From positions 186,001-250,000 of the forward strand of contig NZ_JAOYTH010000010.1 in assembly GCF_025847205.1 (NCBI RefSeq): a DNA stretch of 64,000 nt, read 5' to 3'. The notes beneath the pieces were generated by a model. That model ran no database searches. It was not told the DNA's origin and saw nothing but the letters and a program-made list of their open reading frames with translations. Positions 9,444 to 22,477 of the stretch are shown here, piece after piece. Source of the DNA: Pararhizobium sp. YC-54 (GTDB lineage: Bacteria > Pseudomonadota > Alphaproteobacteria > Rhizobiales > Rhizobiaceae). The position numbers were made by a program, and so were the translations under genes. Position 1 is the first letter of the stretch; every line of letters starts with the position of its first letter.

Positions 9444-10703
9444 TTATTTGCTCGCGAGGAACTTCTGTTGAGCCTTGGTCATGTATTCAGCCCATTGCTT
9501 GGCCATTTCCTCCGGTGTGATATCGCCGAGCATGGCTTCCTGGCTGGTCTTGATCGCCATGGAATCCTTGAAGAAGGCGAATTCTTCCAGATAGGTCGGC
9601 ATCACGGTCGGGATAGCGTCCTTGTCGGCCAGTTCCTCGAACCAGCCCTTGAACTGGTCCGTGGCGAAGAAGGGATCCTTCTCGGCGGACTTGAGCGCCG
9701 GCAGGGCGCCGATCTTCTTGTTCCACTCGATATTGCCTTCCGGCCCTTCGAGCGTGGCGATCAGCTTCCAGGACAGGTCCTTGTTGGCGCTGGCCGACAT
9801 CATCGACCAGCCGGCAAAGCCGATGGTCGGGAAGGTCTTGCCGGACGGACCCTTCGGCATGGTGGTGACGCCGTAATCGGCCGCATCCATGCGCTCGGCG
9901 ATGGCGATCAAGGCGTCGGGATCCTGGTCGAGCATCGCGCAGGTGCCGGTGTAGAAGCCGGCGACGATCTCGTTGAAGCCCCAGTTGACGCTGTCCTTCG
10001 GCGCATAGCCGTTCTTGTAGAGATCGGTCAGCCAGGTGAAGCCCTTGACCCAGCCTTCTTCGCTGAACTTCGATGTGCCGTCAGCATTGAAGTAGGTATT
10101 GTCTCCGGCCATGGTGGCACCAAACATCATCCAGCCGTTGAGGCCGCCCGGACCGCCGCGCATGCAATAGGCATATTTGCCCGGCAGCTTCTTGATTTTT
10201 TCGGCGGCGGCGACGAAGTCATCCATCGTCTTCGGCGGGCCGTCGACGCCGGCTTCGGCGAAGATTTTCTTGTTGTAGAACATGGCGCGCAGATAGAAGC
10301 CGTAAGGCAGCATATAGGCGGTGTCCTTGACGTCGCGGCCAAGCTCGAGCGCGCGATCCGTCAGTTCCGGCGTCTGGTCCCAGGTCTTGAGGTAAGGCTC
10401 GAGGCTTTCGAGCATGCCGTTATTGGCATAAAGCGACAGCCAGGTATCGGGCATTTCCATCACGTCGGGAATTTCACCGGCAGAAACCATGGTGGCGAAC
10501 TTCTGGAAGGCTTCGCCCCAGGGCAGCGAGATGATCTCGACCGTCGTGCCGGGGTTGGCGGCTTCGAACTTGGCGACGATCGACTTCAGGGTTTCGGTGC
10601 GCTCGGGGCTGGTGATGACTTCCACCAGCTTCAGCTTGGTATCGGCAAGGGCGGTGCCCGCCATCAGCGTGGCGACCACGGTCGCCGCAATCAGTTTCCT
10701 CAT
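9444..10703 (-). CDS. Extracellular solute-binding protein, family 1 (carbohydrate type)
   Basis: This is the periplasmic receptor of the importer. The 419-residue protein begins with a signal peptide (MRKLIAATVVATLMAGTALA, cleavage before DTKLK) and continues with the family 1 pattern LKSIVAKFEAANPGTTVEII and GEIPDVMEMPDTWLSLYANN. AAGGGA lies seven bases before the ATG. The gene follows the PLP enzyme gene by 44 bases and is followed by a hairpin and two permease genes. CUT1 receptors usually bind oligosaccharides, polyols or glycerol-3-phosphate. The co-transcribed PLP enzyme suggests an amino- or sulfur-bearing ligand here, but that is inference. Confidence 0.93.
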   Translation of the reverse strand: MRKLIAATVVATLMAGTALADTKLKLVEVITSPERTETLKSIVAKFEAANPGTTVEIISLPWGEAFQKFATMVSAGEIPDVMEMPDTWLSLYANNGMLESLEPYLKTWDQTPELTDRALELGRDVKDTAYMLPYGFYLRAMFYNKKIFAEAGVDGPPKTMDDFVAAAEKIKKLPGKYAYCMRGGPGGLNGWMMFGATMAGDNTYFNADGTSKFSEEGWVKGFTWLTDLYKNGYAPKDSVNWGFNEIVAGFYTGTCAMLDQDPDALIAIAERMDAADYGVTTMPKGPSGKTFPTIGFAGWSMMSASANKDLSWKLIATLEGPEGNIEWNKKIGALPALKSAEKDPFFATDQFKGWFEELADKDAIPTVMPTYLEEFAFFKDSMAIKTSQEAMLGDITPEEMAKQWAEYMTKAQQKFLASK

Positions 10704-10747
10704 TTTCGTTTCCCTTTTATTGTTGGTTTAAGTTGCTTGCTGTCGTG

Positions 10748-11920
10748 TCAGCCTGCCGAGGCGGCATTAATTGCCGCTTCGATATCGCTCCAGAGGGCCT
10801 CCGTTCCCTCCAGGCCGACATGGAGCCGTACCGACCGCGGACTGATGCCGAAGGCGACCGCGGAATTGGGTTGTGCTTTTTGCGAAAGGACGACTTCGCC
10901 CGGCACGATCAGGCTTTCATGCCCGCCCCAGCTGACACCGAGCTTGAACAGCTCAAGATGGTCGCAGAAGGTGCGGACATTGATGCCCTCCTTGAAGATG
11001 AAGGAAAACAGGCCGGACGTGCCCTTGAGGCCGGGTGCCAGCTGGTTGGCAAGGCCGGGATAACAAACGGTTTCGACCGCGTCATGCGCCTGCAACCGCT
11101 TGGCGACGGCGACTGCGGACTGCTCGTGCGCCTTCATGCGGATCGGCAATGTGCGCATGCCGCGGATCAACAGCCATGCATCGAAGGGCGACAGCTTGCC
11201 GCCGAGATAGGGGTAGGCTTCCGAGCGTATCCGGCCGATCAGTTCCTTCGAGCCTGCAACGACGCCGGCGACGACATCGCTGTGGCCGCCGAGATATTTC
11301 GATGCCGAATGGATGACCAGATCGACCCCGAGCGAGATCGGCTGCTGGAAAACCGGGCTTGCCCAGCTGTTGTCGATGGCGGAGATAATACCATGGCTCT
11401 TGGCAAGGGCTGCGAGGGCTGCGACGTCATGGGTCTGCATCACCCAACTGGTCGGGCTTTCCAGATAAAGCAGTTTTGCGCCGGGCAGGGCCTTGGCGAC
11501 CGCCTCCTCGTCGCGGCCATCGACATAGGTGACCTCGATGTTCATGCGCTTGAAGAACGTGCCAAAAAGGCGAAAAGCATCGGGATAGAGATGCTTGACG
11601 GCGACGATGCGGTCGCCGGGCTCGACGAAGGACAGCACCGTCGAGGAGATCGCCGACATGCCGCTGGCAAAGCCGATGGCATCTTCCGCGCCCTCGAGTT
11701 TCGCCAGCATGTCCTCGAATATCCGCACGGTGGGGTTCAGGCCGCGCGTATAGATCGGCCGGATCTTTTCGCCGCGATAGGAGGCGACCATGTCGTCATA
11801 GTCGGTGAAGGTGAACAGCGACGTCTGCACGATCGGCGGCACGACGGCGTCATAGGCATTGCTCACGTCGTGGGCGACGATGAGGGAGGCTTCTTCGAAC
11901 GGATCGAACCCGTTGCTCAT
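10748..11920 (-). CDS. Cys/Met metabolism PLP-dependent enzyme (cystathionine lyase/synthase-like)
   Basis: The 390-residue protein belongs to the trans-sulfuration fold type I family. The PLP lysine is K208 in SASKYLGGHSDV. Other conserved segments are YTRGLNPTVRIFEDMLAKLEG (phosphate-side loop), the glycine-rich GFASGMSAISS, and ESPTSWVMQTHDV with the cofactor Asp in AIDNSWASPVFQQP. Family members act as cystathionine beta- or gamma-lyases, methionine gamma-lyase or sulfhydrylases, and the sequence alone does not separate these. The start overlaps the GntR stop by four bases, and the ABC binding-protein gene follows at 44 bases. A catabolic carbon-sulfur or similar elimination on an imported substrate fits better than core biosynthesis. 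Confidence 0.88.
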   Translation of the reverse strand: MSNGFDPFEEASLIVAHDVSNAYDAVVPPIVQTSLFTFTDYDDMVASYRGEKIRPIYTRGLNPTVRIFEDMLAKLEGAEDAIGFASGMSAISSTVLSFVEPGDRIVAVKHLYPDAFRLFGTFFKRMNIEVTYVDGRDEEAVAKALPGAKLLYLESPTSWVMQTHDVAALAALAKSHGIISAIDNSWASPVFQQPISLGVDLVIHSASKYLGGHSDVVAGVVAGSKELIGRIRSEAYPYLGGKLSPFDAWLLIRGMRTLPIRMKAHEQSAVAVAKRLQAHDAVETVCYPGLANQLAPGLKGTSGLFSFIFKEGINVRTFCDHLELFKLGVSWGGHESLIVPGEVVLSQKAQPNSAVAFGISPRSVRLHVGLEGTEALWSDIEAAINAASAG

Positions 11921-12636
11921 TTGGACATTTCCTTGATGTCTTCCTCGACGATCGCGAGGATTTTTAGTGTTTCGGTACGGGCGGCTTCAGGGTCCTGCCC
12001 CGCGATGGCGTTGAACAGCGTGCGGTGGAACGGAAAGGAGCGGCGGGCGAAATCCGGCCGATCGAAAGGCTTTTCCCAGAAGCGTTCGAAAGCGCCGCGC
12101 ATCTGTTCAAGCAGCTGCTTGAACAGCGGATTGTGGGTGGCGTCATAGATGGCCAGATGGAAGGCGAGGTCTTCCGGGCCCGATGTGCCCTTGGAGAGAT
12201 GCACGCGCTCCATCTCGTTGAGCTTTTCCTCGATCACCGTCAGGTCTTCGGCCGTGCGCATGCGGGCCGCGACCATGCCGGCTTCCGCCTCGATGCCGCG
12301 GCGGACTTCCAGCGTTTTCAGCAGAACGTCACGCAGATGCGTCGTTTCCAGTGACAGCGGCATGTGGACGGTGGTGCCGGAGATCGGCTTGAGCAGATAG
12401 GTGCCGCTGCCCTTGCGGGCTTCGACGACACCGAGCGCCTGAAAATGGCGGATGACTTCGCGGATGGTCGAACGGCCGACGGCAAGTGCCGTCATCAGCT
12501 CGCGTTCGGCCGGAAGCCGGTCGCCGGGGGCGAGGTTGGAGCGCTGGATGTAATCGGCAAGCGCTGCCGTCACCTGTTGCGCCCGGTCGGCCGGGGGCAG
12601 GGGGGCAAGTGCTGCTCTTGCATCCTTGTGCTTCAT
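11917..12636 (-). CDS. GntR/FadR-family transcriptional regulator
   Basis: The protein (about 239 aa) has an N-terminal winged helix (QVTAALADYIQRSNLAPGDRLPAERELMTALAVGRSTIREVIRHF) and a C-terminal all-helical FCD ligand domain (DVLLKTLEVRRGIEAEAGMV and DLAFHLAIYDATHNPLFKQLL, with the metal-type His). I chose the ATG at 12636 because GGAAAG lies close upstream. In-frame ATGs at 12660 and 12690 lack good sites and would overlap the candidate operator. It is the first gene of its own operon, so autoregulation of the PLP enzyme and importer genes is likely. Confidence 0.9.
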   Translation of the reverse strand: MKHKDARAALAPLPPADRAQQVTAALADYIQRSNLAPGDRLPAERELMTALAVGRSTIREVIRHFQALGVVEARKGSGTYLLKPISGTTVHMPLSLETTHLRDVLLKTLEVRRGIEAEAGMVAARMRTAEDLTVIEEKLNEMERVHLSKGTSGPEDLAFHLAIYDATHNPLFKQLLEQMRGAFERFWEKPFDRPDFARRSFPFHRTLFNAIAGQDPEAARTETLKILAIVEEDIKEMSK

Positions 12637-12663
12637 CGTCCGCTTTCCAGCTGAAACCATAAT

Positions 12664-12674
12664 TGGTCTGACAT
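12664..12674 (-). promoter_or_regulatory. Candidate FadR/GntR-type operator
   Basis: TGGTCTGACAT matches the family consensus tnGTnnnACna at all fixed positions but the last. It lies 28 bases upstream of the chosen GntR start, where it could block transcription of the regulator-enzyme-importer unit. The assignment rests on a short match and position only. Confidence 0.45.
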
Positions 12675-12869
12675 CTGAGCAATAATGCAAATCGGAAGAG
12701 ACCCGTCAAGGGGCAGATAATGGTTTCGGCACTGCATTCAGATGAGCTGACACGACGACACCGAACGGGATCGTTGAAATGGCGTCCTGCCTGCTGATGC
12801 GGTAAACTGGCCGGGTGAAATTATTCCATCGCGCCGGAGTGTTCCTGCGCTTGAAACGGCAGGTGCGAG

Positions 12870-13592: not shown

Positions 13593-14579
13593 TTAGGCTC
13601 TCCCAAGCTCCGGGCCTGCAATCCCCGGCGGATAGGTCCGCTCGGTGAGCGGCACGGCCGCGATGGCGGCGAGCAGCCGGTCGATCAGCAAAGTCTCCGC
13701 CCGGCTGCCGCGTGCGGAACGCTTGGTGACCAGATAGACATCGGCAGCCGGCGGGTTTTCATAGGGTGGCAATTGCCACAATTGCCGCGCCTCGATGTCG
13801 GCTGTCACCACATGGATGGGCAGGGGGCCGAAGCCGAAACCGACCTTGATGAGGCGCTTGACCTCTTCGAGATTGGTGAAGAGCCCGAGCACCGGTCCGT
13901 TGAAATTCTCCCGTTGCCGCAGGCGGGCGACCGGTGCCAGGGCGCCGCCGAGCTGATCCGTCTTGAAGGAGACGTAGTCCAGGGCGGCGAGCTCGGTGAT
14001 ATCGGTCTCGCGTTTGCCGAACAGCGGGTGACCGGGCGCACAGAAGAAGCCGAAATGCTCGCGGTAAAGCACTGTATAGTCGAGCTCCGGGTGTTTTTCA
14101 TGGGCGAGGCAGATGCCAAGGCAGGATTCACCGGACAGAACGTTATCGATGACCGTCTGGCTGGCGGAAACCGTGGTCGAGAAACTGACGCGCGGAAAGG
14201 TTCTGTGGAAATCGGCGAGGAAACGGTCGAGGAAAGGGCATTCGATATGACTGGCAAACGCCATCTCGACATGACCGGTGATCAGATCCGGATCGTCCTT
14301 GACGAGATCGGGAAGGCCGGTGACGATCGAGAACATCGTCAGGCATTCGGCGTACAGCCGTTCGCCCGCCGGCGTCATCCGGAAGTGACTGGAGGAGCGG
14401 TCGATCAGCCGGCAGGCCATGTGCTCTTCGAGGCGGCGCAACGCGTTGCTGATGGTCGGCTGCTTCAGCGACAGCCGGTTGCCCGCCGCCGTCAGGCTCT
14501 TTTCCTCGACGATCACCGTGAAGGTGCGCAAAAGGTTCCAGTCGATCTCCCAGACAAAGCGGCGTCGCGGACTGGCCAT
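13593..14579 (-). CDS. LysR-family transcriptional regulator
   Basis: The 328-residue protein has the LysR winged helix at the N-terminus (DWNLLRTFTVIVEEKSLTAAGNRLSLKQPTISNALRRLEEH) and a periplasmic-binding-like effector domain after residue 100. It is divergent from the dimethylformamidase-like operon, with about 107 bases between the two chosen starts. A perfect inverted repeat lies right at the LysR end of that gap. It is the likely activator of the divergent operon and its own repressor, the usual LysR arrangement. Confidence 0.92.
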   Translation of the reverse strand: MASPRRRFVWEIDWNLLRTFTVIVEEKSLTAAGNRLSLKQPTISNALRRLEEHMACRLIDRSSSHFRMTPAGERLYAECLTMFSIVTGLPDLVKDDPDLITGHVEMAFASHIECPFLDRFLADFHRTFPRVSFSTTVSASQTVIDNVLSGESCLGICLAHEKHPELDYTVLYREHFGFFCAPGHPLFGKRETDITELAALDYVSFKTDQLGGALAPVARLRQRENFNGPVLGLFTNLEEVKRLIKVGFGFGPLPIHVVTADIEARQLWQLPPYENPPAADVYLVTKRSARGSRAETLLIDRLLAAIAAVPLTERTYPPGIAGPELGRA

Positions 14580-14588
14580 GGGTCACCT

Positions 14589-14605
14589 CATTCATTTGAT
14601 GAATG
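14589..14605. promoter_or_regulatory. Candidate LysR operator, 17-bp perfect palindrome
   Basis: CATTCAT-TTG-ATGAATG is a perfect inverted repeat with 7-base arms and contains the T-N11-A core expected for LysR proteins. It begins 10 bases upstream of the LysR start codon and lies 82 bases upstream of the first gene of the divergent operon. Confidence 0.6.
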
Positions 14606-14686: not shown

Positions 14687-16324
14687 GTGACGGACAGAAC
14701 CCAGATTTTCCCCGATTTCGGGTTGAGCCCTGAGCAACGGCACCAGGCCGTGCGCGGTCACTATTACGAATATCCGGGCATGGACGGCGCCCGCGGCGAG
14801 ATCTGGTGCTACACGCGATCCTATGCCTATGCACCCGGCGCGACGGTGGACCTGCATATCAGCTCGACAGCGCCTTCCTGCCGGCTGGAGATCGTTCGCG
14901 ACGGTGCGCAGCAAATCAGCGTTTTCGGCACCGACGATATCGCCACGGTCTGGCAGGAAACGCCCGATCAGGTCTCCGTCATCGGCTGCGGCTGGGAGCC
15001 GGCCTTCACCTTTACGGTCCATGACAGCTGGCCATCCGGCGCTTACCGCATCACGCTGACGGCTAAGGGACGCGACGGCAAGCCGATCCAGTGTCACCAT
15101 CTGATCATCGTTTTGCCGAAGGCCGGCCGAAAACCTGGCCGTATCCTGCAGGTCGCCGCCACCGGCACCTGGACCGCCTATAACACCTGGGGCGGATCGA
15201 ACCACTATCAGGGCATCACCGGCCCCAATCGCGACAAGTATGCGACCACGGTCAGCATCGAACGGCCGCTCTGCCGCGGTTTCGTCGTACTGCCGCCGGA
15301 TGCGCCGCGCGTGCCGCTGGAGATGAGCCTGCCGCCGGGCACGATACCGCGTTATCCGCATATGGAATGGGCCTTTGCCAACGGCTATTCGAAGAAATAT
15401 ACCTCGTCCGGCTGGGCAAGCTATGACAGCCAGTTCTTCCGCTGGGCCGAGCGTGAGGGGTACGGCGTCGATCTCGCCAGCCAGCATGAACTGCACTACA
15501 ACCCCGGCATTCTGAATGACTATGACTGCGTCGTCTTTGTCGGCCATGACGAATACTGGACCTGGGAAATGCGCGATGCCGTCGATGCCTATGTCGACCA
15601 GGGCGGGCGCGTCGCCCGTTTTGCCGGCAATTTCATGTGGCAGACGCGGCTGGAGGACGAGGGCCAGCGGCAGGTCTGCTACAAATATCTCGCGCGCAGG
15701 GAAGACCCGGCCTATCAGGGCGGCGACGTCACCCGCGCCACCAATTCCTGGGAAGCACCCGAAATCGGCCGCCCCGGCGCGCTGACCTTCGGGCTCAACG
15801 CCACCAATGGCGTCTATTCCGGTTGGGGCGGCTGTGCTCCGCGCGGCGTGCGCGGTTTCCCGATCTACCGGCCACGTCACTGGGCCTTTGCCGGAACCGG
15901 CCTGTTCTACGGCGATCTGCTCGGTGCCGACAGTCATATCTATGGCTACGAGGTCGATGGCCTGGCTTATGAAATCCGTTACGGCCTGCCTTATCCGACC
16001 GCCGATAGCGGCGCGCCTGAGGGGCTGGAAATCCTGGCTTTGGGCATGGCGAGCCAGGTCGAGGAAAGCGATATCCTGACGCGCGAAGACCTCTTCTTCG
16101 GTGACGAGGACGGACGCTTCATCGCCGAGACGCTCTATGGCGAGGCCAGCGACGAGAACATGGAAAAGGTTCGCTACAGCAATGGCATGATCGTCAACTT
16201 CAAGCGCGGCAAGGGCGAGGTTTTCCACGCCGGGACCTGCGAATGGGTGGCGGGCCTGTTGCGCAACGATAAGATGGTCGAGCGCGTCACCGCCAATGTG
16301 CTTAACCGCTATCTCAACCGATAA
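14687..16324 (+). CDS. N,N-dimethylformamidase large (beta) subunit-like protein
   Basis: The protein (about 545 aa) matches the large-subunit domain of N,N-dimethylformamidase. The marks are WTAYNTWGGSNHYQG, DLASQHELHYNPGIL, VVFVGHDEYWTWEMRDAVD, GGRVARFAGNFMWQTR and the end region FHAGTCEWVAGLL. Characterised family members hydrolyse formamide C-N bonds and need a small subunit. No small-subunit gene is visible here, so the substrate may differ. I chose the GTG at 14687 because AGCGAGG lies six bases upstream. The frame is open further upstream but would run through the LysR operator. It is the first gene of a five-gene operon. Confidence 0.85.
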   Translation: MTDRTQIFPDFGLSPEQRHQAVRGHYYEYPGMDGARGEIWCYTRSYAYAPGATVDLHISSTAPSCRLEIVRDGAQQISVFGTDDIATVWQETPDQVSVIGCGWEPAFTFTVHDSWPSGAYRITLTAKGRDGKPIQCHHLIIVLPKAGRKPGRILQVAATGTWTAYNTWGGSNHYQGITGPNRDKYATTVSIERPLCRGFVVLPPDAPRVPLEMSLPPGTIPRYPHMEWAFANGYSKKYTSSGWASYDSQFFRWAEREGYGVDLASQHELHYNPGILNDYDCVVFVGHDEYWTWEMRDAVDAYVDQGGRVARFAGNFMWQTRLEDEGQRQVCYKYLARREDPAYQGGDVTRATNSWEAPEIGRPGALTFGLNATNGVYSGWGGCAPRGVRGFPIYRPRHWAFAGTGLFYGDLLGADSHIYGYEVDGLAYEIRYGLPYPTADSGAPEGLEILALGMASQVEESDILTREDLFFGDEDGRFIAETLYGEASDENMEKVRYSNGMIVNFKRGKGEVFHAGTCEWVAGLLRNDKMVERVTANVLNRYLNR

Positions 16325-16345
16325 TTTCACCAAGAGCAGAGCATC

Positions 16346-17722
16346 ATGAACATCCAAGCCAATGAGCGGCCCGCATCCCATCTCTTCTACGTGACACGAC
16401 TGCGCCGGCCGCTGGTCGATCGCGCCGAGGGCATCTATGTCTGGACCAAGGACGGGCGGCGCTTCATCGACGGATCGAGCGGACCGATGGTCAGCAATAT
16501 CGGCCACGGCAATCGCCATGTCATCGAGGCGATGAAGCGGCAGATGGAGAAGACGAGCTTCGCCTATCGCCTGCATTTCGAGAACGAACCGGCCGAGGAG
16601 CTGGCCCGGCGGCTGGCTGGAAAAATGCCTGGCGACCTCGACCGGATCTTCTTCGTTTCCGGCGGCTCGGAAGCGGTGGAATCGGCGATCAAGCTGGCGC
16701 GGCAATGGGCGGTGGCGACCAACCAGCCGCAACGCTGGAAGGTGATCTGCCGGTTTCCGTCCTATCACGGCGGCACGATCGGCGCGCTTGGCGTGACCGG
16801 CGACCTGGCGCTGACTGAAACCTTTGCGCCGCAGATCCAGCCAATGCCGGTCATTCCGGCTCCAACAGCCTACCGCGACCGCGACAACCTGACGATGGAA
16901 CAACGCGGCCTGCGTTACGCCGACATGCTGGAGGAGAAAATCCTTTCCGAAGGTCCCGAAAGCGTTGTCGCCTTTATCATGGAGCCAATCGGCGGAGCGG
17001 CGACGGCAGCGCTGGTGGCGCCGGACAGCTATTTCGCGCGTATCCGCGAAATCTGCGACAAATACGGCATCCTCTTAATCCATGACGAGGTGATGAGCGG
17101 TGCTGCGCGCACCGGCAAATATCTCGGTGGCGATCACTGGAACTGCAAGCCGGATATCGTCACGCTGTCGAAGGGGATCGGCTCGGGCTATGCCGCACTC
17201 GGCGCCATGGCGGCTTCAGCAAAACTGGTGAAGCCGGTGCTCGACATGGGCGGCTTCCAGCATGGCTATACCTATGCCGGCAATCCGCTCGCCTGCGCCG
17301 CAGGCCTTGCGGTGCTCGAGGAGATGGAACGGCTCGGCGTCGAAGCCAATGCTGCCGCGATGGGCGAGCTGCTGAAATCCGAATTGGAAGGACTGGCCAA
17401 ACGCTTTCCGTTTATCGCAGGCGTGCGCGGCAAGGGTCTGCTGATCGGCGCCGATCTGGTGGCCGATCCTGTGACCTTCAAGCCCTTCGCGAAGGTGCAG
17501 GCGACCAACCAGCGGCTGCTCGACATCGCCTATGACAAGGGGCTGATCCTCTATTCCCGCCGTATCCGCGGCGATGGCTACGAAGCCGACAATCTGATTC
17601 TGGCGCCGCCGCTGATCATTACACCTGCGGAAATCGGTGAAATGGTTTCGGTTCTCGGCGACAGCTTCGAACAGTTGGCGCGCGAACTCGATCTCCCAAT
17701 CAGCAGCAACGGAAACGGCTGA
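16346..17722 (+). CDS. Class III aminotransferase (omega-amino acid/diamine type)
   Basis: The 458-residue protein is a fold type I PLP enzyme of subgroup II. The PLP lysine is K276 in VTLSKGIGSGYAALGAM. The phosphate-site segment is FVSGGSEAVESAIKLARQ, and the cofactor Asp lies in LLIHDEVMSG. Family members transfer terminal amino groups of putrescine, beta-alanine, taurine or similar amines to pyruvate or 2-oxoglutarate. It lies 21 bases after the amidase-like gene and abuts the BKACE gene, so the product is plausibly an aldehyde or beta-keto acid handled by that enzyme. Confidence 0.93.
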   Translation: MNIQANERPASHLFYVTRLRRPLVDRAEGIYVWTKDGRRFIDGSSGPMVSNIGHGNRHVIEAMKRQMEKTSFAYRLHFENEPAEELARRLAGKMPGDLDRIFFVSGGSEAVESAIKLARQWAVATNQPQRWKVICRFPSYHGGTIGALGVTGDLALTETFAPQIQPMPVIPAPTAYRDRDNLTMEQRGLRYADMLEEKILSEGPESVVAFIMEPIGGAATAALVAPDSYFARIREICDKYGILLIHDEVMSGAARTGKYLGGDHWNCKPDIVTLSKGIGSGYAALGAMAASAKLVKPVLDMGGFQHGYTYAGNPLACAAGLAVLEEMERLGVEANAAAMGELLKSELEGLAKRFPFIAGVRGKGLLIGADLVADPVTFKPFAKVQATNQRLLDIAYDKGLILYSRRIRGDGYEADNLILAPPLIITPAEIGEMVSVLGDSFEQLARELDLPISSNGNG

Positions 17723-18661
17723 ATGAAGATCATGAAAAACAAAGTCATCATCACCTGCGCCGTCACCGGTTCTGTCCATACGCCGTCGATGAGCCCCTAT
17801 CTGCCGGTAACGCCGGATCAGATCGCCGAACAGGCGATCGCCGCAGCCGAGGCCGGCGCGTCGATCCTGCATCTGCATGCCCGCAATCCTGCCGACGGGC
17901 GGCCGACCGCAGACCCGGCAGTTTTCATGCAGTTTCTGCCGCGCATCAAGCAGGCAACCGATGCCGTCATCAACATCTCCACCGGCGGCAGTTCGCTGAT
18001 GACGCTGGACGATCGGCTGGCAGCATCGCTTCAGGCGCAGCCGGAAATGTGCTCGCTCAACATGGGCTCGATGAATTTCGGCATTTTCCCGCTGGCAAAG
18101 CCTGGCATGGAATGGCAGCACGAATGGGAGCCGCAGCTTCTGGAGGCGACGCGCGGCACGATCTTCAAGAACACGTTTGCGGATATTGAGGGTATCCTGA
18201 AACGGCTGGGCGAGGGGTGCGGCACCCGCTTCGAGTTCGAATGCTACGACGTCGGCCATCTCTATTCGCTGAAGCATTTTTATGATCGCGGCCTGGTGAA
18301 AGGGCCGCTGTTCATCCAGTTCGTGCTCGGCATTCTCGGCGGCATCGGCGCCGATCCGGATAATCTCAGCCACATGAAACGCATTGCCGACAAGCTGTTT
18401 GGAGACGACTATCGCTTCTCGGTTCTCGCTGCCGGCCGTCAGCAAATGCAGCTGATCACCATGGGGGCTGCAATGGGCGGCAATGTGCGGGTCGGACTGG
18501 AAGACAGCCTTTATCTTGGGCGCGGGGAACTTGCCAAATCCAATGCCGACCAGGTGAGCCGCATTCGCACCATTCTCGAAGCCCTGTCGCTGGAGGTTGC
18601 GACGCCCGACGAGGCACGCACGATGCTGGCGCTCAAGGGTGGCGACCGGGTGAGTTTCTGA
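17723..18661 (+). CDS. Beta-keto acid cleavage enzyme (BKACE, formerly DUF849)
   Basis: The 312-residue TIM-barrel protein carries the zinc-binding pair HLHAR (H50 and H52), the N-terminal VIITCAVTGSVHTPSMSPYL and the C-terminal barrel segment VRVGLEDSLYLGRGELAKSN with the zinc Glu. Known members condense a beta-keto acid with acetyl-CoA to give acetoacetate and a new acyl-CoA. 3-keto-5-aminohexanoate cleavage in lysine fermentation is the prototype. The start directly follows the aminotransferase stop, and a second ATG nine bases on is equally plausible. The next gene overlaps by one base (TGATG). The specific keto acid is not readable from sequence. Confidence 0.93.
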   Translation: MKIMKNKVIITCAVTGSVHTPSMSPYLPVTPDQIAEQAIAAAEAGASILHLHARNPADGRPTADPAVFMQFLPRIKQATDAVINISTGGSSLMTLDDRLAASLQAQPEMCSLNMGSMNFGIFPLAKPGMEWQHEWEPQLLEATRGTIFKNTFADIEGILKRLGEGCGTRFEFECYDVGHLYSLKHFYDRGLVKGPLFIQFVLGILGGIGADPDNLSHMKRIADKLFGDDYRFSVLAAGRQQMQLITMGAAMGGNVRVGLEDSLYLGRGELAKSNADQVSRIRTILEALSLEVATPDEARTMLALKGGDRVSF

Positions 18662-19173
18662 TGGTGGACATCTCGAACCAGCCCGTAGAAATTCGTGTCG
18701 CGACATCGCAGGATGTGCATCTCATCCACGCGGGCCTCATGACCATCGCGCGGCATCTCGATGCCGTGGGAAAAGTCACTGCGACGCCGGAAGACCTTCG
18801 CAAACACGGTTTCGGTCCGCAGCCGGCCTTTACCGTTCTCATCGCCGAAATTGGTGGAGAATTTGCCGGCATGTGCCTGTTCTTCCAGAGCTTCTCGACC
18901 TGGCGCGGGCAGAAGGGCGCTTACATCCAGGATATTGCCGTCGAGGAACGCTTTCGCGGCAGCGGGATCGGCGTGGCACTTCTGCGCAACACGGCGGCGC
19001 ATGTCCGGGCCGGGGGAGGCACCTATCTGCGCCTGTCGGTCGAGGCGAAAAACACCTCGGCCCAGCACTTCTATCAGCGGATGGGTCTTTTATGGTCTGA
19101 GGAAGAGCGGATTCATGCAGCCTATGGCGAGGCGTTCGACGCGCTCGCCGGACAGCACGAGAGCGGGGTTTGA
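18661..19173 (+). CDS. GNAT-family N-acetyltransferase
   Basis: The 170-residue protein shows the GNAT core. The acetyl-CoA loop lies in IAVEERFRGSGIGVALLRNTAAHV (Q/RxxGxG/A pattern), and motif B includes LSVEAKNTSAQHFYQRMG. The N-terminal region VEIRVATSQDVHLIHAGLMT is typical of small-amine or polyamine acetyltransferases. It shares one base with the BKACE gene. Its position between an acyl-CoA-forming enzyme and a deacetylase suggests it modifies an amine intermediate of the same pathway. Confidence 0.87.
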   Translation: MVDISNQPVEIRVATSQDVHLIHAGLMTIARHLDAVGKVTATPEDLRKHGFGPQPAFTVLIAEIGGEFAGMCLFFQSFSTWRGQKGAYIQDIAVEERFRGSGIGVALLRNTAAHVRAGGGTYLRLSVEAKNTSAQHFYQRMGLLWSEEERIHAAYGEAFDALAGQHESGV

Positions 19174-19182
19174 GGGACGAAC

Positions 19183-20202
19183 ATGAAGACGTTCTATGCT
19201 GACGAGCAGAAAAAACACGATCCGAAAATGTTCCTGTCGAGCGGAGCGCCACAGCCCAATCCGGAAAAGCCGGAGCGGATCGAGCGGCTGCTCGCCGGCG
19301 CAAGGGCCGCCGGATCCGAGATCGTACGGCCGCGTGATCATGGCCTGAAGCCGATCGCCGCCATCCATACGCCGGAATATCTCGAGTTCCTGCAGAACAT
19401 CTTTCTGCGCTGGCAGCGGATCGAGGGCGCCTCGGAGGAGGTGATCCCGAACATCCATCCGCTGGCGAGAACCGGGCGTTATCCGGCCTCCGCCGTCGGC
19501 CAGGCCGGATATCACATGGCTGACACGGCTTGCCCGATTTCCGCCGATACCTGGGGCAGCGCCTGCTGGAGCGCCTGGAGTGCCGTCGAGGCCGCCGAAG
19601 CGGTTCTGGCCGGTGCCCGCCATACTTATGCGCTCTGCCGTCCACCGGGCCACCACGCCTTTGCCGATGTCGCCGGCGGGTTCTGTTTCCTCAACAATTC
19701 GGCCATTGCCGCGCAGCATCTGCTGCAGTCGTCAAAACGCGTCGCCATCCTTGATGTCGATCTGCATCACGGCAACGGCACGCAGGGCATTTTCTACGGC
19801 CGCAGCGACGTTTTGACGGTATCGCTGCATGCCGATCCCGTGCGCTTCTATCCGTTCTTCTGGGGCAATGCCGACGAACGCGGCGAAGGCCCGGGGCTCG
19901 GCTACAACTACAATCTGCCGCTGCCGCGCAAGACGGCCGATGCCGGGTTTCTCGAGGCGCTGGAGGTTGCCAACCGCCGCATCGAAGCCTATGCGCCGGA
20001 GGCGCTGGTGGTTGCGCTTGGCCTCGACGCCTTCGAAGGCGATCCGTTCGGCGGACTATCCGTCTCGACGCCGGGCTTTGCCCGGATCGCCGAAGCGATC
20101 AGCAGCCTGGGCCTGCCAACTGTTATCGTCCAGGAAGGCGGCTATCTCTGCGACCAACTCGGCGACAATCTGACGTCGTTCCTGACCGGGTTTGGCCATT
20201 GA
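19183..20202 (+). CDS. Acetylpolyamine amidohydrolase / class II histone-deacetylase-like hydrolase
   Basis: The 339-residue protein has the arginase/deacetylase fold. The tandem His pair is in RPPGHHAFADVAGGFCFLNN, the zinc site in LDVDLHHGNGTQGIFY, and the second zinc Asp in LGLDAFEGDPFGG. Bacterial members of this length deacetylate acetylputrescine, acetylcadaverine or acetylspermidine. It is the last gene of the operon, ten bases after the GNAT gene, which offers the opposite reaction. A short spacer leads to the IS30 element. Confidence 0.92.
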   Translation: MKTFYADEQKKHDPKMFLSSGAPQPNPEKPERIERLLAGARAAGSEIVRPRDHGLKPIAAIHTPEYLEFLQNIFLRWQRIEGASEEVIPNIHPLARTGRYPASAVGQAGYHMADTACPISADTWGSACWSAWSAVEAAEAVLAGARHTYALCRPPGHHAFADVAGGFCFLNNSAIAAQHLLQSSKRVAILDVDLHHGNGTQGIFYGRSDVLTVSLHADPVRFYPFFWGNADERGEGPGLGYNYNLPLPRKTADAGFLEALEVANRRIEAYAPEALVVALGLDAFEGDPFGGLSVSTPGFARIAEAISSLGLPTVIVQEGGYLCDQLGDNLTSFLTGFGH

Positions 20203-20270: not shown

Positions 20271-20386
20271 GGGTGGGTTCAAGGATGAAGTGCGACTTGC
20301 AATAGATAACAACGGTTTATCCTTGCAAGGAACGAGACATGAAACGCACCTACTCGCAGATCGATCTGGATGAACGCCGCAAGATT
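20271..20386 (+). repeat. Direct repeat, copy 1 (IS30 left end)
   Basis: This 116-base segment, from GGGTGGGTTC to the transposase codons ending AAGATT, is repeated at 21148-21263. I see a single mismatch, A at 20289 against C at 21166. Confidence 0.85.
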
Positions 20387-21250
20387 GCCCGCTGGCGCAC
20401 GGCTGGGATCAGCGTTGACGTGATCGCCGAGAAACTGCACCGACATCGCTCAACCATTTTCCGTGAGCTGCGCCGCAATGTGTTCGAGGATCGTGAGATG
20501 CCGGACCTCAACGGTTACTACTGCGTGATGGCCAATGACATGGCGCGAGAACGGCGTGCCAAGCTGCGCAAACTTGCCCGGTTCTCTGTTCTGCGCCAAT
20601 CGGTGATCGAGCGCATCCTGCATGGCTGGTCGCCACAACAGATCGCTGGCCGATTGCAGCTTGAGCGCCATCCGATCTCTGTCAGCCATGAGACGATCTA
20701 CAAGTTCGCCTATTCCTCGGACGGCCAAGCGATCAAGCTATGGCGACATCTGCCGGAGCACCGCGCCAGGCGCCGGCCACGGCACGCCAGACGCCGCCAT
20801 GGTCGGCGGTTCACCCCGGACGTCAACATTCTCTACCGGCCCGACGCCGTTGCCGAGCGCAAGCAGTTCGGGCACTGGGAATGCGACCTCATCCAGTTTC
20901 GCAAGAAGTTCGGAAAAGCCAACGTGACGTCGCTGGTCGAACGGGTCAGCCGGTTTGCCGTCTTCCTGCGCAACAATGACCGGCAATCGAGACCGGTGAT
21001 GGACGGGCTGATCCAGGTCCTTCAGTCTCTACCCCACCTCGCCCGCCGCTCGATCACCTTCGACCGTGGCACCGAATTCACCGACTGGCCCTACCTGCAG
21101 GCGAGCATCGGAGCGCAAACATGGTTCTGCGATCCACAATCCCCGTGGGGTGGGTTCAAGGATGACGTGCGACTTGCAATAGATAACAACGGTTTATCCT
21201 TGCAAGGAACGAGACATGAAACGCACCTACTCGCAGATCGATCTGGATGA
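20339..21250 (+). pseudogene. IS30-family transposase, truncated before the catalytic Glu
   Basis: The N-terminal helix-turn-helix (TYSQIDLDERRKIARWRTAG...VIAEKLHRHRSTIFRELRRN) and the DDE core with GHWECDLIQF (first Asp) and ITFDRGTEFTDWP (second Asp) are intact. After WFCDPQSPW the usual QKGTVEN segment with the catalytic Glu is replaced by translation of the repeated left end (from about 21148). The frame then runs on to a stop at 21250, giving 303 residues where full-length members are longer. The protein should be catalytically dead. Confidence 0.85.
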
Positions 21251-21263
21251 ACGCCGCAAGATT
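21148..21263 (+). repeat. Direct repeat, copy 2 (IS30 left end)
   Basis: This is the second copy of the IS30 left end. It starts in the middle of the transposase gene and ends at the junction with AT-rich DNA. It includes a second transposase start codon at 21216 that leads nowhere. Confidence 0.85.
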
Positions 21264-21422: not shown

Positions 21423-21884
21423 ATGAAAAGCGACAGTCGAAAAAGGGGGCGCCTGCGCCTCGATGAAAGACTTCGGGCGCTCCAACCGATTGACCGGTTC
21501 AAAGCGCCGCCGAAAGGATGGGTGCGCGCACTACGCGACGCGCTCGGGATGACGGGCGCTCAGCTCGGCACACGCATTGGCGTACGACCTCAAACTGTCG
21601 AAGCCATCGAGAAGTCGGAAGCGGCAGGCACGATCCAACTTAAAACCTTACGTCGCGCAGCTGAGGCGTTGGATTGCACGCTCGTCTACGCCCTTGTTCC
21701 AAACAGTTCACTTGAGACTGTCATCGAAACGCGTGCGAGGAAAATCGCAACGCGCGAGCTTCAGGGCGTCGCGCATACAATGCGGCTCGAAGCTCAAGGC
21801 ACAGATGATGCGGATTTTGAATCTCGCGTCCAGGCATACATTCGCGACAAACTCTCTGAGCGTGACCTCTGGAACGAGACATGA
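21423..21884 (+). CDS. Mobile mystery protein A (XRE-type helix-turn-helix protein)
   Basis: The 153-residue protein has a helix-turn-helix at about residues 35-80 (WVRALRDALGMTGAQLGTRIGVRPQTVEAIEKSE). A helical C-terminal half follows (RARKIATRELQGVAHTMRLEAQ). Together with the Fic protein that overlaps it by four bases, it matches the mobile mystery A/B pair, an accessory gene pair often seen on mobile DNA. By analogy with Fic toxin-antitoxin pairs it may act as repressor and perhaps as a neutralising partner. The phased boxes directly upstream are its likely binding sites. The function of the pair has not been established as far as I know. Confidence 0.85.
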   Translation: MKSDSRKRGRLRLDERLRALQPIDRFKAPPKGWVRALRDALGMTGAQLGTRIGVRPQTVEAIEKSEAAGTIQLKTLRRAAEALDCTLVYALVPNSSLETVIETRARKIATRELQGVAHTMRLEAQGTDDADFESRVQAYIRDKLSERDLWNET

Positions 21885-22477
21885 CGGACCTGCTTCAGGA
21901 GCCTGAGGACGCAACACCCCTTGAACCGCATGAGCGAGAGGGACTGCTGCAGACATGGATCACGCACCGCCGCGATCTCAACGAGGCGGAGCAGGAAAAC
22001 ATCGTCGAAGGTGCGGCCTGGTCGCGTGGTCGTCGGCGTGTCTCGCTTGAGCGAATGCTCAGCGAGGACTTCATGCGAACGCTGCACAAGCGGATGTTTG
22101 GCGACGTCTGGGAATGGGCCGGCACCTTCCGAACGACGGAGCGCAACATCGGCGTCCAAGCCTACCGCATCGGAGTGGAACTCGCGAGCCTGTTAAGCGA
22201 CGTCCGCTATTGGGTCGAACATGAGACATTTCCGCAGGATGAAATTGCGGTCAGGTTCCACCATCGCCTGGTCGCGATCCACCCATTTCCAAACGGAAAT
22301 GGCCGTCACGCTCGCTTGGCGGCCGATCTCCTGATCGAACGCCTTGGCGGCGAGCGTTTCAGTTGGGGCGGCGGAACTCTGGCCGATGTCGATGAACTGC
22401 GCACTCGTTATGTCGCGGCCCTTCGTGCAGCAGACAATCATGATATTGCGCCGCTGCTGGAATTCGCGCGCACCTGA
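21881..22477 (+). CDS. Mobile mystery protein B (Fic/Doc-fold protein)
   Basis: The 198-residue protein has a Fic core with motif HPFPNGNGRHAR at residues 134-145. The acidic residue of the standard HxFx(D/E)GNGR motif is Asn here, which is usual for this subfamily but could change metal binding or the transferred group. Near the N-terminus, residues 39-44 (ENIVEG) resemble the inhibitory (S/T)xxxE(G/N) motif of Fic enzymes, with Glu instead of Ser/Thr. The ATG overlaps the XRE stop. Fic proteins usually attach AMP or another phosphate-linked group to a target. The target here is unknown. Confidence 0.87.
   Translation: MTDLLQEPEDATPLEPHEREGLLQTWITHRRDLNEAEQENIVEGAAWSRGRRRVSLERMLSEDFMRTLHKRMFGDVWEWAGTFRTTERNIGVQAYRIGVELASLLSDVRYWVEHETFPQDEIAVRFHHRLVAIHPFPNGNGRHARLAADLLIERLGGERFSWGGGTLADVDELRTRYVAALRAADNHDIAPLLEFART

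Follow-up and report, generated by a model that had tools for sequence, protein, structure and literature searches.

Aerobic catabolism of L-beta-lysine was reportedly described in Pseudomonas B4 by the Barker group at about 1979-81, and is said to proceed through N6-acetylation, transamination to 3-keto-6-acetamidohexanoate, cleavage to 4-acetamidobutyryl-CoA and deacetylation to 4-aminobutyrate (GABA). To our knowledge, no genes have been assigned to this route, and we know of none for two of its enzymes, the N6-acetyl-beta-lysine transaminase and the 4-acetamidobutyryl-CoA deacetylase, which are thus orphan enzymes. Here we describe a five-gene operon (positions 14687..20202) in a 64,000-nucleotide stretch of DNA from Pararhizobium sp. 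YC-54 (contig NZ_JAOYTH010000010.1, positions 186,001 to 250,000), hereafter the window, in which acetyltransferase, transaminase, cleavage and deacetylase genes of the kinds that such a route would need stand together. The steps of the Pseudomonas route match those proposed for the operon one by one, with the differences that the operon would use a beta-keto acid cleavage enzyme (BKACE), releasing acetoacetate, and that it would start with an extra acylase. The operon may be a new gene-level variant of a pathway type with biochemical precedent. The sequence-only reading knew of no described pathway with this set, a claim that is doubtful given that the Pseudomonas route has the same steps; the listings of literature searches contained no paper with this gene set, with genes for 6-acetamido-3-oxohexanoate cleavage or with genes assigned to the beta-lysine route. 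We lean, by a little, towards a catabolic operon under LysR control that degrades a beta-amino acid carrying a further, distal amine group; beta-lysine or an amide of it is the likeliest candidate.

All five genes lie on the + strand, and the open reading frames, the recomputed gaps (21, 0, -1 and 9) and the Pfam/NCBIfam assignments agreed with the tight packing and families described in the sequence-only reading. The first gene, 14687..16324 with a GTG start, encodes a 545-aa DMFA2_C-family protein (Pfam 228.9 bits, cut-off 27), referred to below as dimethylformamidase-like (DMF-like) and proposed as an N-acyl-beta-amino-acid (or related amide) acylase. It is followed by a 458-aa class III aminotransferase (AT3; 16346..17722; Pfam Aminotran_3 305.6, also matched in NCBIfam), the proposed beta-amino acid (acetyl-beta-lysine type) transaminase, and by the 312-aa BKACE (17723..18661). 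The last two genes encode a 170-aa GNAT acetyltransferase (18661..19173; Pfam Acetyltransf_1 60.5), the proposed masker of the distal amine, and a 339-aa acetylpolyamine amidohydrolase (APAH), an HDAC-type deacetylase (19183..20202; Hist_deacetyl 252.3), which would unmask the amine after cleavage. An alternative ATG reading frame of the first gene starts at 14603; this ATG falls within an inverted repeat, and among the 12 nearest relatives in the database 10 have 545 aa, so the GTG at 14687 is preferred.

The N,N-dimethylformamidase large subunit (6lvb) shares the DMFA2_C family with the first protein; its Fe site consists of Y399, Y440 and E521 plus H519, and a small subunit is needed for activity, as given in excerpts of PMC7686228. 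Of these, Y399, E521 and the catalytic H519 have Y165, E289 and H287 of the first protein, respectively, as their aligned partners, all three invariant in a 12-sequence alignment, while the ligand Y440 falls in an unaligned stretch, with no aligned counterpart. Unlike the dimethylformamidase, the first protein has no pentraxin middle domain, the alignment skipping the part of 6lvb between residues 40 and 338 (545 versus 775 aa). It also has no small-subunit gene within the operon, in line with the sequence-only reading, although this search covered the operon and not the rest of the genome.

With the single sequence, a PDB search found dimethylformamidase alone (8.3e-8). A 12-sequence profile shifted this picture, placing N-acetyl-(R)-beta-phenylalanine acylase (8i5a/8huy) on top with 66.8 bits (1.3e-17) and dimethylformamidase second with 60.9 bits (7.5e-16). 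The AlphaFold model, with a pLDDT of only 67 and a pTM of 0.76, gave the same order in a fold search: six acylase chains led (TM-score about 0.55 on the query, 6.7e-16), three dimethylformamidase chains came next (TM-score about 0.47, 4.0e-14), and matches past an E-value of 4e-5 were mostly short, at about 120-150 columns. The acylase is the nearest solved relative by both approaches, yet it shares 14-15% identity in the fold alignment and has 772-776 residues against 545. By profile and predicted fold, the family of the first protein appears narrowly nearer to the N-acyl-beta-amino-acid acylase than to dimethylformamidase; because the margin is narrow, "acylase" is a lead. Dimethylformamidase activity was judged unlikely in view of the lost middle domain, the missing partner gene in the operon and the slightly nearer acylase relatives, although the single-sequence search speaks for it. 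On plasmids of Dinoroseobacter and Shinella (L116, L118), DMF-like homologues of 50% identity come right after a gene annotated as a CoA transferase.

The BKACE exceeds the cut-offs of both PF05853 (367.1, cut-off 24.8) and NF053538 (537.7, cut-off 430), the latter a model named for 3,5-dioxohexanoate. Its nearest characterised PDB-listed relative is BKACE15 of Paracoccus denitrificans (8rio/8rip; 8rio at 2e-120), which aligns over the full length and whose E171 and R254 are retained as E173 and R256. In excerpts of PMC11961710, these two residues are given as catalytic with E171 favoured as the base, the substrates are uncharged C5-C6 beta-keto acids, malonate semialdehyde is also accepted in a reaction termed new-to-nature, and the natural role is stated to be unknown. 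A BKACE15-like preference for uncharged substrates is what an acetylated tail would need. In lysine fermentation, another BKACE-family enzyme, Kce, splits a beta-keto acid that arises from an isomer of lysine; its substrate is the free amine 3-keto-5-aminohexanoate (excerpts of PMC3149608), while that proposed for the operon is acetyl-masked. The operon differs further in having no lysine aminomutase gene (kamA) nearby and a BKACE that falls below the cut-off of the Kce model NF052387 (243.9 bits, cut-off 382).

For AT3, the nearest PDB relatives are 3i4j and 6io1; the beta-amino acid transaminases 2yku and 4ao9 are not among its best 60 PDB matches, and judged by sequence AT3 is not a member of that characterised family. 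The best PDB matches of APAH are 3men, 9gkz, 6phr and 3q9b. Like the acetylpolyamine amidohydrolases 3men and 3q9b, it belongs to the HDAC-type family and aligns near full length, with GHH, DxDxHHG and EGGY stretches common to it, 3men (2-338) and 9gkz (1-337); HDAC-type enzymes carry HH, DxH and Y as catalytic motifs. It differs from them in being set among transaminase and BKACE genes.

Scanning genome contigs yielded 322 confirmed relatives of the first protein, and the best 80 of the 322 were analysed; the 77 loci with at least 4.6 kb of downstream sequence were used for counting, a partner being at the site when found within 6 kb at an identity of at least 55% (AT3), 70% (BKACE), 40% (GNAT) or 70% (APAH). 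AT3 occupied the site in 72 of these loci, BKACE in 50, GNAT in 73 and APAH in 75, and the gene order was unchanged in 77/77. All four partners were present in 45 loci, BKACE only was missing in 25, AT3 together with GNAT in 4, BKACE together with APAH in 2, and AT3 in one (L075). The related loci are mostly from Mesorhizobium and Rhizobium and are therefore not independent events. Within the genus (26 genomes), 16 genomes had all five genes, the GNAT match being partial or fragmented in G005 and G012, 5 had none, and 5 had part of the set: AT3 to APAH plus a DMF remnant (G003), a broken DMF reading frame (G014), GNAT plus DMF pieces (G001), only a BKACE, of 70% identity (G016), and APAH and GNAT only (G021). 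The set is thus conserved beyond the source genome, in many soil and plant-associated bacteria, and the check named in the sequence-only reading, that a set confined to this genome would refute its idea, did not refute it.

In all 26 searched genomes of the 27 loci without BKACE, BKACE paralogues (58-66%) occur elsewhere. Compensation for the lost BKACE by such paralogues was considered and is not shown, as BKACE-bearing genomes possess paralogues as well. In L049 and L055, which have neither BKACE nor APAH at the site, a BKACE adjoins an APAH at a second genomic place. A separate observation is a PF04463 (2-thiouracil desulfurase family) gene directly before GNAT in 9 of the 80 loci, assigned by Pfam for the L053 copy (L053:11021-11530) and by cluster membership for the rest.

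A search with AT3 only was performed in 101 relatives (up to 16 candidates scored per genome) and in 398 phylum genomes (up to 4), so that AT3 counts are lower bounds. An AT3 match was found in at least 21 of the 398 phylum genomes, namely the source genome and further members of its family, order or class. Besides the source genome and G100, 17 of 19 phylum places and 12 places from the 101 relatives were analysed, with G056 and the main copies of the genus set aside. Among these, 20 AT3 clusters had no DMF-like gene, and in 18 of them AT3 stood beside either BKACE (13) or CoA-transferase A+B (5); none had both, and of the two with neither, L186 stops soon after AT3 at a contig end. The deacylase changed together with the cleavage gene: APAH was present in 11 of the 13 BKACE clusters versus none of the 5 CoA-transferase clusters (Fisher p 0.0025, relatedness not removed), while an M20 (ArgE/DapE-type) deacylase was found in 5/5 CoA-transferase clusters, and a thiolase lay within the analysed stretch in 3 of them. 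L192, a BKACE cluster, has M20 replacing APAH; L198 and L199 have both deacylases, and L202 has neither.

A further arrangement was found on a Sinorhizobium medicae plasmid (L122), where a DMF-like gene (69%) downstream of an amino-acid transporter lies near LysR, CoA-transferase A+B, M20, thiolase and GNAT (38%) genes and a different aminotransferase, which matches AT3 at 25% over part of its length. The best PDB matches of this aminotransferase are the beta-transaminases 2yku (1.6e-129) and 6iz9 and the beta-phenylalanine aminotransferase 4ao9 (4.6e-122), and therefore the substitute for AT3 belongs to a family acting on beta-amino acids. Each replacement would keep the logic of the steps, namely amine to ketone (AT3 or beta-transaminase), cleavage (BKACE or CoA-transferase plus thiolase) and N-deacylation (HDAC-type or M20). 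The presence of GNAT in the same operon, together with this preserved logic, points to acetyl masking of the second amine. In the DMF-less clusters, PotB/PotD-like (polyamine-type) transporter genes occur in 10 of 20, the PotB-like protein scoring 204.6 bits, less than the NCBIfam PotB cut-off of 348, and amino-acid-type transporters (SBP_bac_3) in 5 of 20; both types would suit a cationic amino acid as the substrate. Five of the clusters with Pot transporters (L175, L178, L195, L198, L199) also hold a flavin adenine dinucleotide (FAD)-dependent oxidase, accompanied by RidA in four, perhaps another entry reaction.

From the established gene content, families, order, conservation and replacements, we infer every reaction, the order of the steps and the substrate as follows. 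The DMFA2_C protein would hydrolyse an N-acyl or amide form to the free beta-amino acid, and GNAT would acetylate the distal amine, which would keep the keto acid formed afterwards from closing into a cyclic imine; 3-oxo-6-aminohexanoate would cyclise, and in the Pseudomonas route N6-acetylation avoids this. AT3 would then convert the beta-amine to a ketone (beta-lysine giving 6-acetamido-3-oxohexanoate), and BKACE with acetyl-CoA would cleave the beta-keto acid into acetoacetate and an acetamido-acyl-CoA (4-acetamidobutyryl-CoA). Finally, the HDAC-type enzyme would strip the acetyl group to leave an ordinary omega-amino acid (GABA), and a thioesterase, adjacent in some relatives, may release CoA; a 4HBT thioesterase adjoins LysR or APAH in several of them. 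The deacetylase is placed after cleavage, with masking as a temporary state, because in the DMF-less clusters the exchange of BKACE for CoA-transferase goes along with that of APAH for M20. The earlier scheme was right in outline and is partly supported: a single pathway, amide hydrolysis first, addition and removal of an acyl group and an aminotransferase making the beta-keto acid for BKACE were all retained, while acetylation has been recast as temporary masking and the deacetylase moved behind the cleavage.

Several observations weigh against this pathway. BKACE is absent from the site in 27/77 loci, in 25 of them as the only loss, and two BKACE-bearing genomes searched alongside carry 60-61% BKACE paralogues too. 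Four loci (L046, L047, L048 and L056, two of them from Ciceribacter) have DMF, BKACE and APAH but neither AT3 nor GNAT; in their genomes and in that of L075, the best-matching AT3 relative reaches just 36-38%. No GNAT was detected at the site in 11 of the 20 DMF-less clusters, and AblB is not among the 14 NCBIfam families that match the window GNAT (E <= 0.001). A BKACE is present elsewhere in the genome for two CoA-transferase clusters out of five (G046 61%, G050 68%); G074 showed no BKACE at the search threshold, the other two such genomes lying outside that search. The acylase was not recovered by the single-sequence PDB search, and some Rhizobium plasmids pair the DMF-like gene with ectoine-hydrolase-like genes instead. 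No KamA-like (lysine aminomutase) gene was present in any of the 171 loci scanned. The KamA family TIGR00238 scored above its cut-off in 26/26 genus genomes, operon present or not, and these proteins are probably the EF-P enzyme. Beta-lysine made by the cell itself was therefore left unsupported, the TIGR00238 matches being uninformative and no KamA lying near the loci. Because of the gaps in BKACE, AT3 and GNAT, the GNAT that is not AblB, the absence of KamA nearby and the other DMF partners, beta-lysine is only a best guess for the substrate, to which we give somewhat less than an even chance. The pathway class, a beta-amino acid with an acetyl-masked second amine, is better supported and appears reasonably probable.

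In a polyamine/beta-alanine route, GNAT and APAH would act on polyamine fragments, AT3 would turn beta-alanine into malonate semialdehyde, and BKACE would yield formyl-CoA and acetoacetate. The acetylpolyamine amidohydrolases that head the PDB matches of APAH and the PotB/PotD-like genes in half of the DMF-less clusters fit this route, as does the acceptance of malonate semialdehyde by the close relative BKACE15, albeit in what excerpts of PMC11961710 term a new-to-nature reaction. A CoA-transferase (with thiolase in 3/5 stretches) in place of BKACE would better suit a beta-keto acid of C5 or longer, and the replacement aminotransferase of S. medicae is of beta-transaminase/beta-phenylalanine type; we regard the polyamine route as unlikely. 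Equally unlikely, in our view, is general scavenging of N-acyl-beta-amino acids, in which the substrates would be simple aliphatic or aromatic compounds and GNAT and APAH a side pair for detoxification or control of free amines. Aromatic beta-amino acid enzymes are indeed among the relatives of the acylase and the beta-transaminase, and L202 lacks APAH. At L171:6341-10269, an M20-like gene (25%), a class III aminotransferase (36%) and BKACE (56-57%) occur along with what looks by eye like a thioesterase gene, with neither GNAT nor APAH found there, perhaps a plain beta-amino acid version. Against a side pair, APAH is present in 75/77 DMF clusters and APAH or M20 in 18/20 DMF-less ones, and in the latter APAH is lost where BKACE is lost, all of which suggests that deacetylation is a step of the same pathway.

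On Rhizobium plasmids (L115, L127, L128 and L129, with L172 and L173), the DMF-like gene is accompanied by an amino-acid ABC transporter, a DoeA-like M24 protein, Lrp and mostly M20, in some cases with EutB or EutC, and farther along in L129/L172 and L115/L173 by aminotransferase, aldehyde dehydrogenase and CoA-transferase genes; these clusters look like an ectoine-like but unnamed pathway. In a further alternative, which is quite improbable, the DMF-like protein would act by ring opening or by cleavage of an ectoine-like or formamide compound, and the operon would serve ectoine-like solutes. In its favour, M24 adjoins the plasmid gene (mostly with Lrp and M20, plus eutB in L127 or eutC in L129), the L127 M24 reaches 407 bits against the DoeA model (under its cut-off of 613), and genes of one cluster, M24 by Pfam in the L096 copy, follow the set in L049, L055, L082 and L096. 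Against it, none of these ectoine-type genes is in the window operon, ectoine breakdown is not known to require beta-keto acid cleavage, and among the AT3-selected regions M24 markers match L189 alone, which coincides with L096.

A divergent LysR-type regulator lies beside the operon (13593..14579, - strand; Pfam HTH_1 and LysR_substrate), as the sequence-only reading had noted, and is its probable regulator. LysR homologues (40-94% identity) are near many related clusters; in several, the homologue lies downstream of the cluster or separates it from a set of ABC transporter genes. The inverted repeat CATTCAT-TTG-ATGAATG (14589..14605), with perfect 7-nt arms, is a candidate LysR operator upstream of the operon. 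Its 6-nt arms CATTCA/TGAATG are kept in 10/10 aligned sequences, the window counted, and were found in 8/80 related loci, and the pattern occurs at a single place in the whole 6.24-Mb genome. A promoter and terminator scan gave no signal exceeding shuffles. On the other side of the regulator, a GntR / Cys-Met pyridoxal phosphate enzyme (PRK05968) / sugar-type ABC substrate-binding protein cluster occupies 9444-12690 on the - strand, and adjoins the operon in 8/80 related loci too. Directly past the operon, an IS30-type transposase frame (20339-21250, within 20271-21263) is flanked by a 116-nt direct repeat (20271-20386 / 21148-21263, 99%), and the element looks rearranged because the frame end extends into the second copy of the repeat. 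Mobile mystery proteins A and B (helix-turn-helix plus Fic-type), a putative mobile pair, follow at 21423-22477.

More speculatively, and tentatively at best, the operon could supply the genes still lacking for aerobic catabolism of beta-lysine, with AT3 as the N6-acetyl-beta-lysine transaminase, the HDAC-type enzyme as the 4-acetamidobutyryl-CoA deacetylase, BKACE performing the cleavage, and the DMFA2_C protein as a new acylase, perhaps of iron type, which would free beta-lysine from natural beta-lysyl amides (antibiotics, poly-beta-lysine) in rhizobial soils. The proposal gives a widespread, unnamed operon of rhizobia an ordered pathway that can be tested, and would provide gene candidates for enzyme steps to which, as far as is known, no genes have been assigned in about 40 years. 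It would also give one BKACE subtype a likely natural role, and point to a possible N-acyl-beta-amino-acid acylase branch within a family now annotated as dimethylformamidase.

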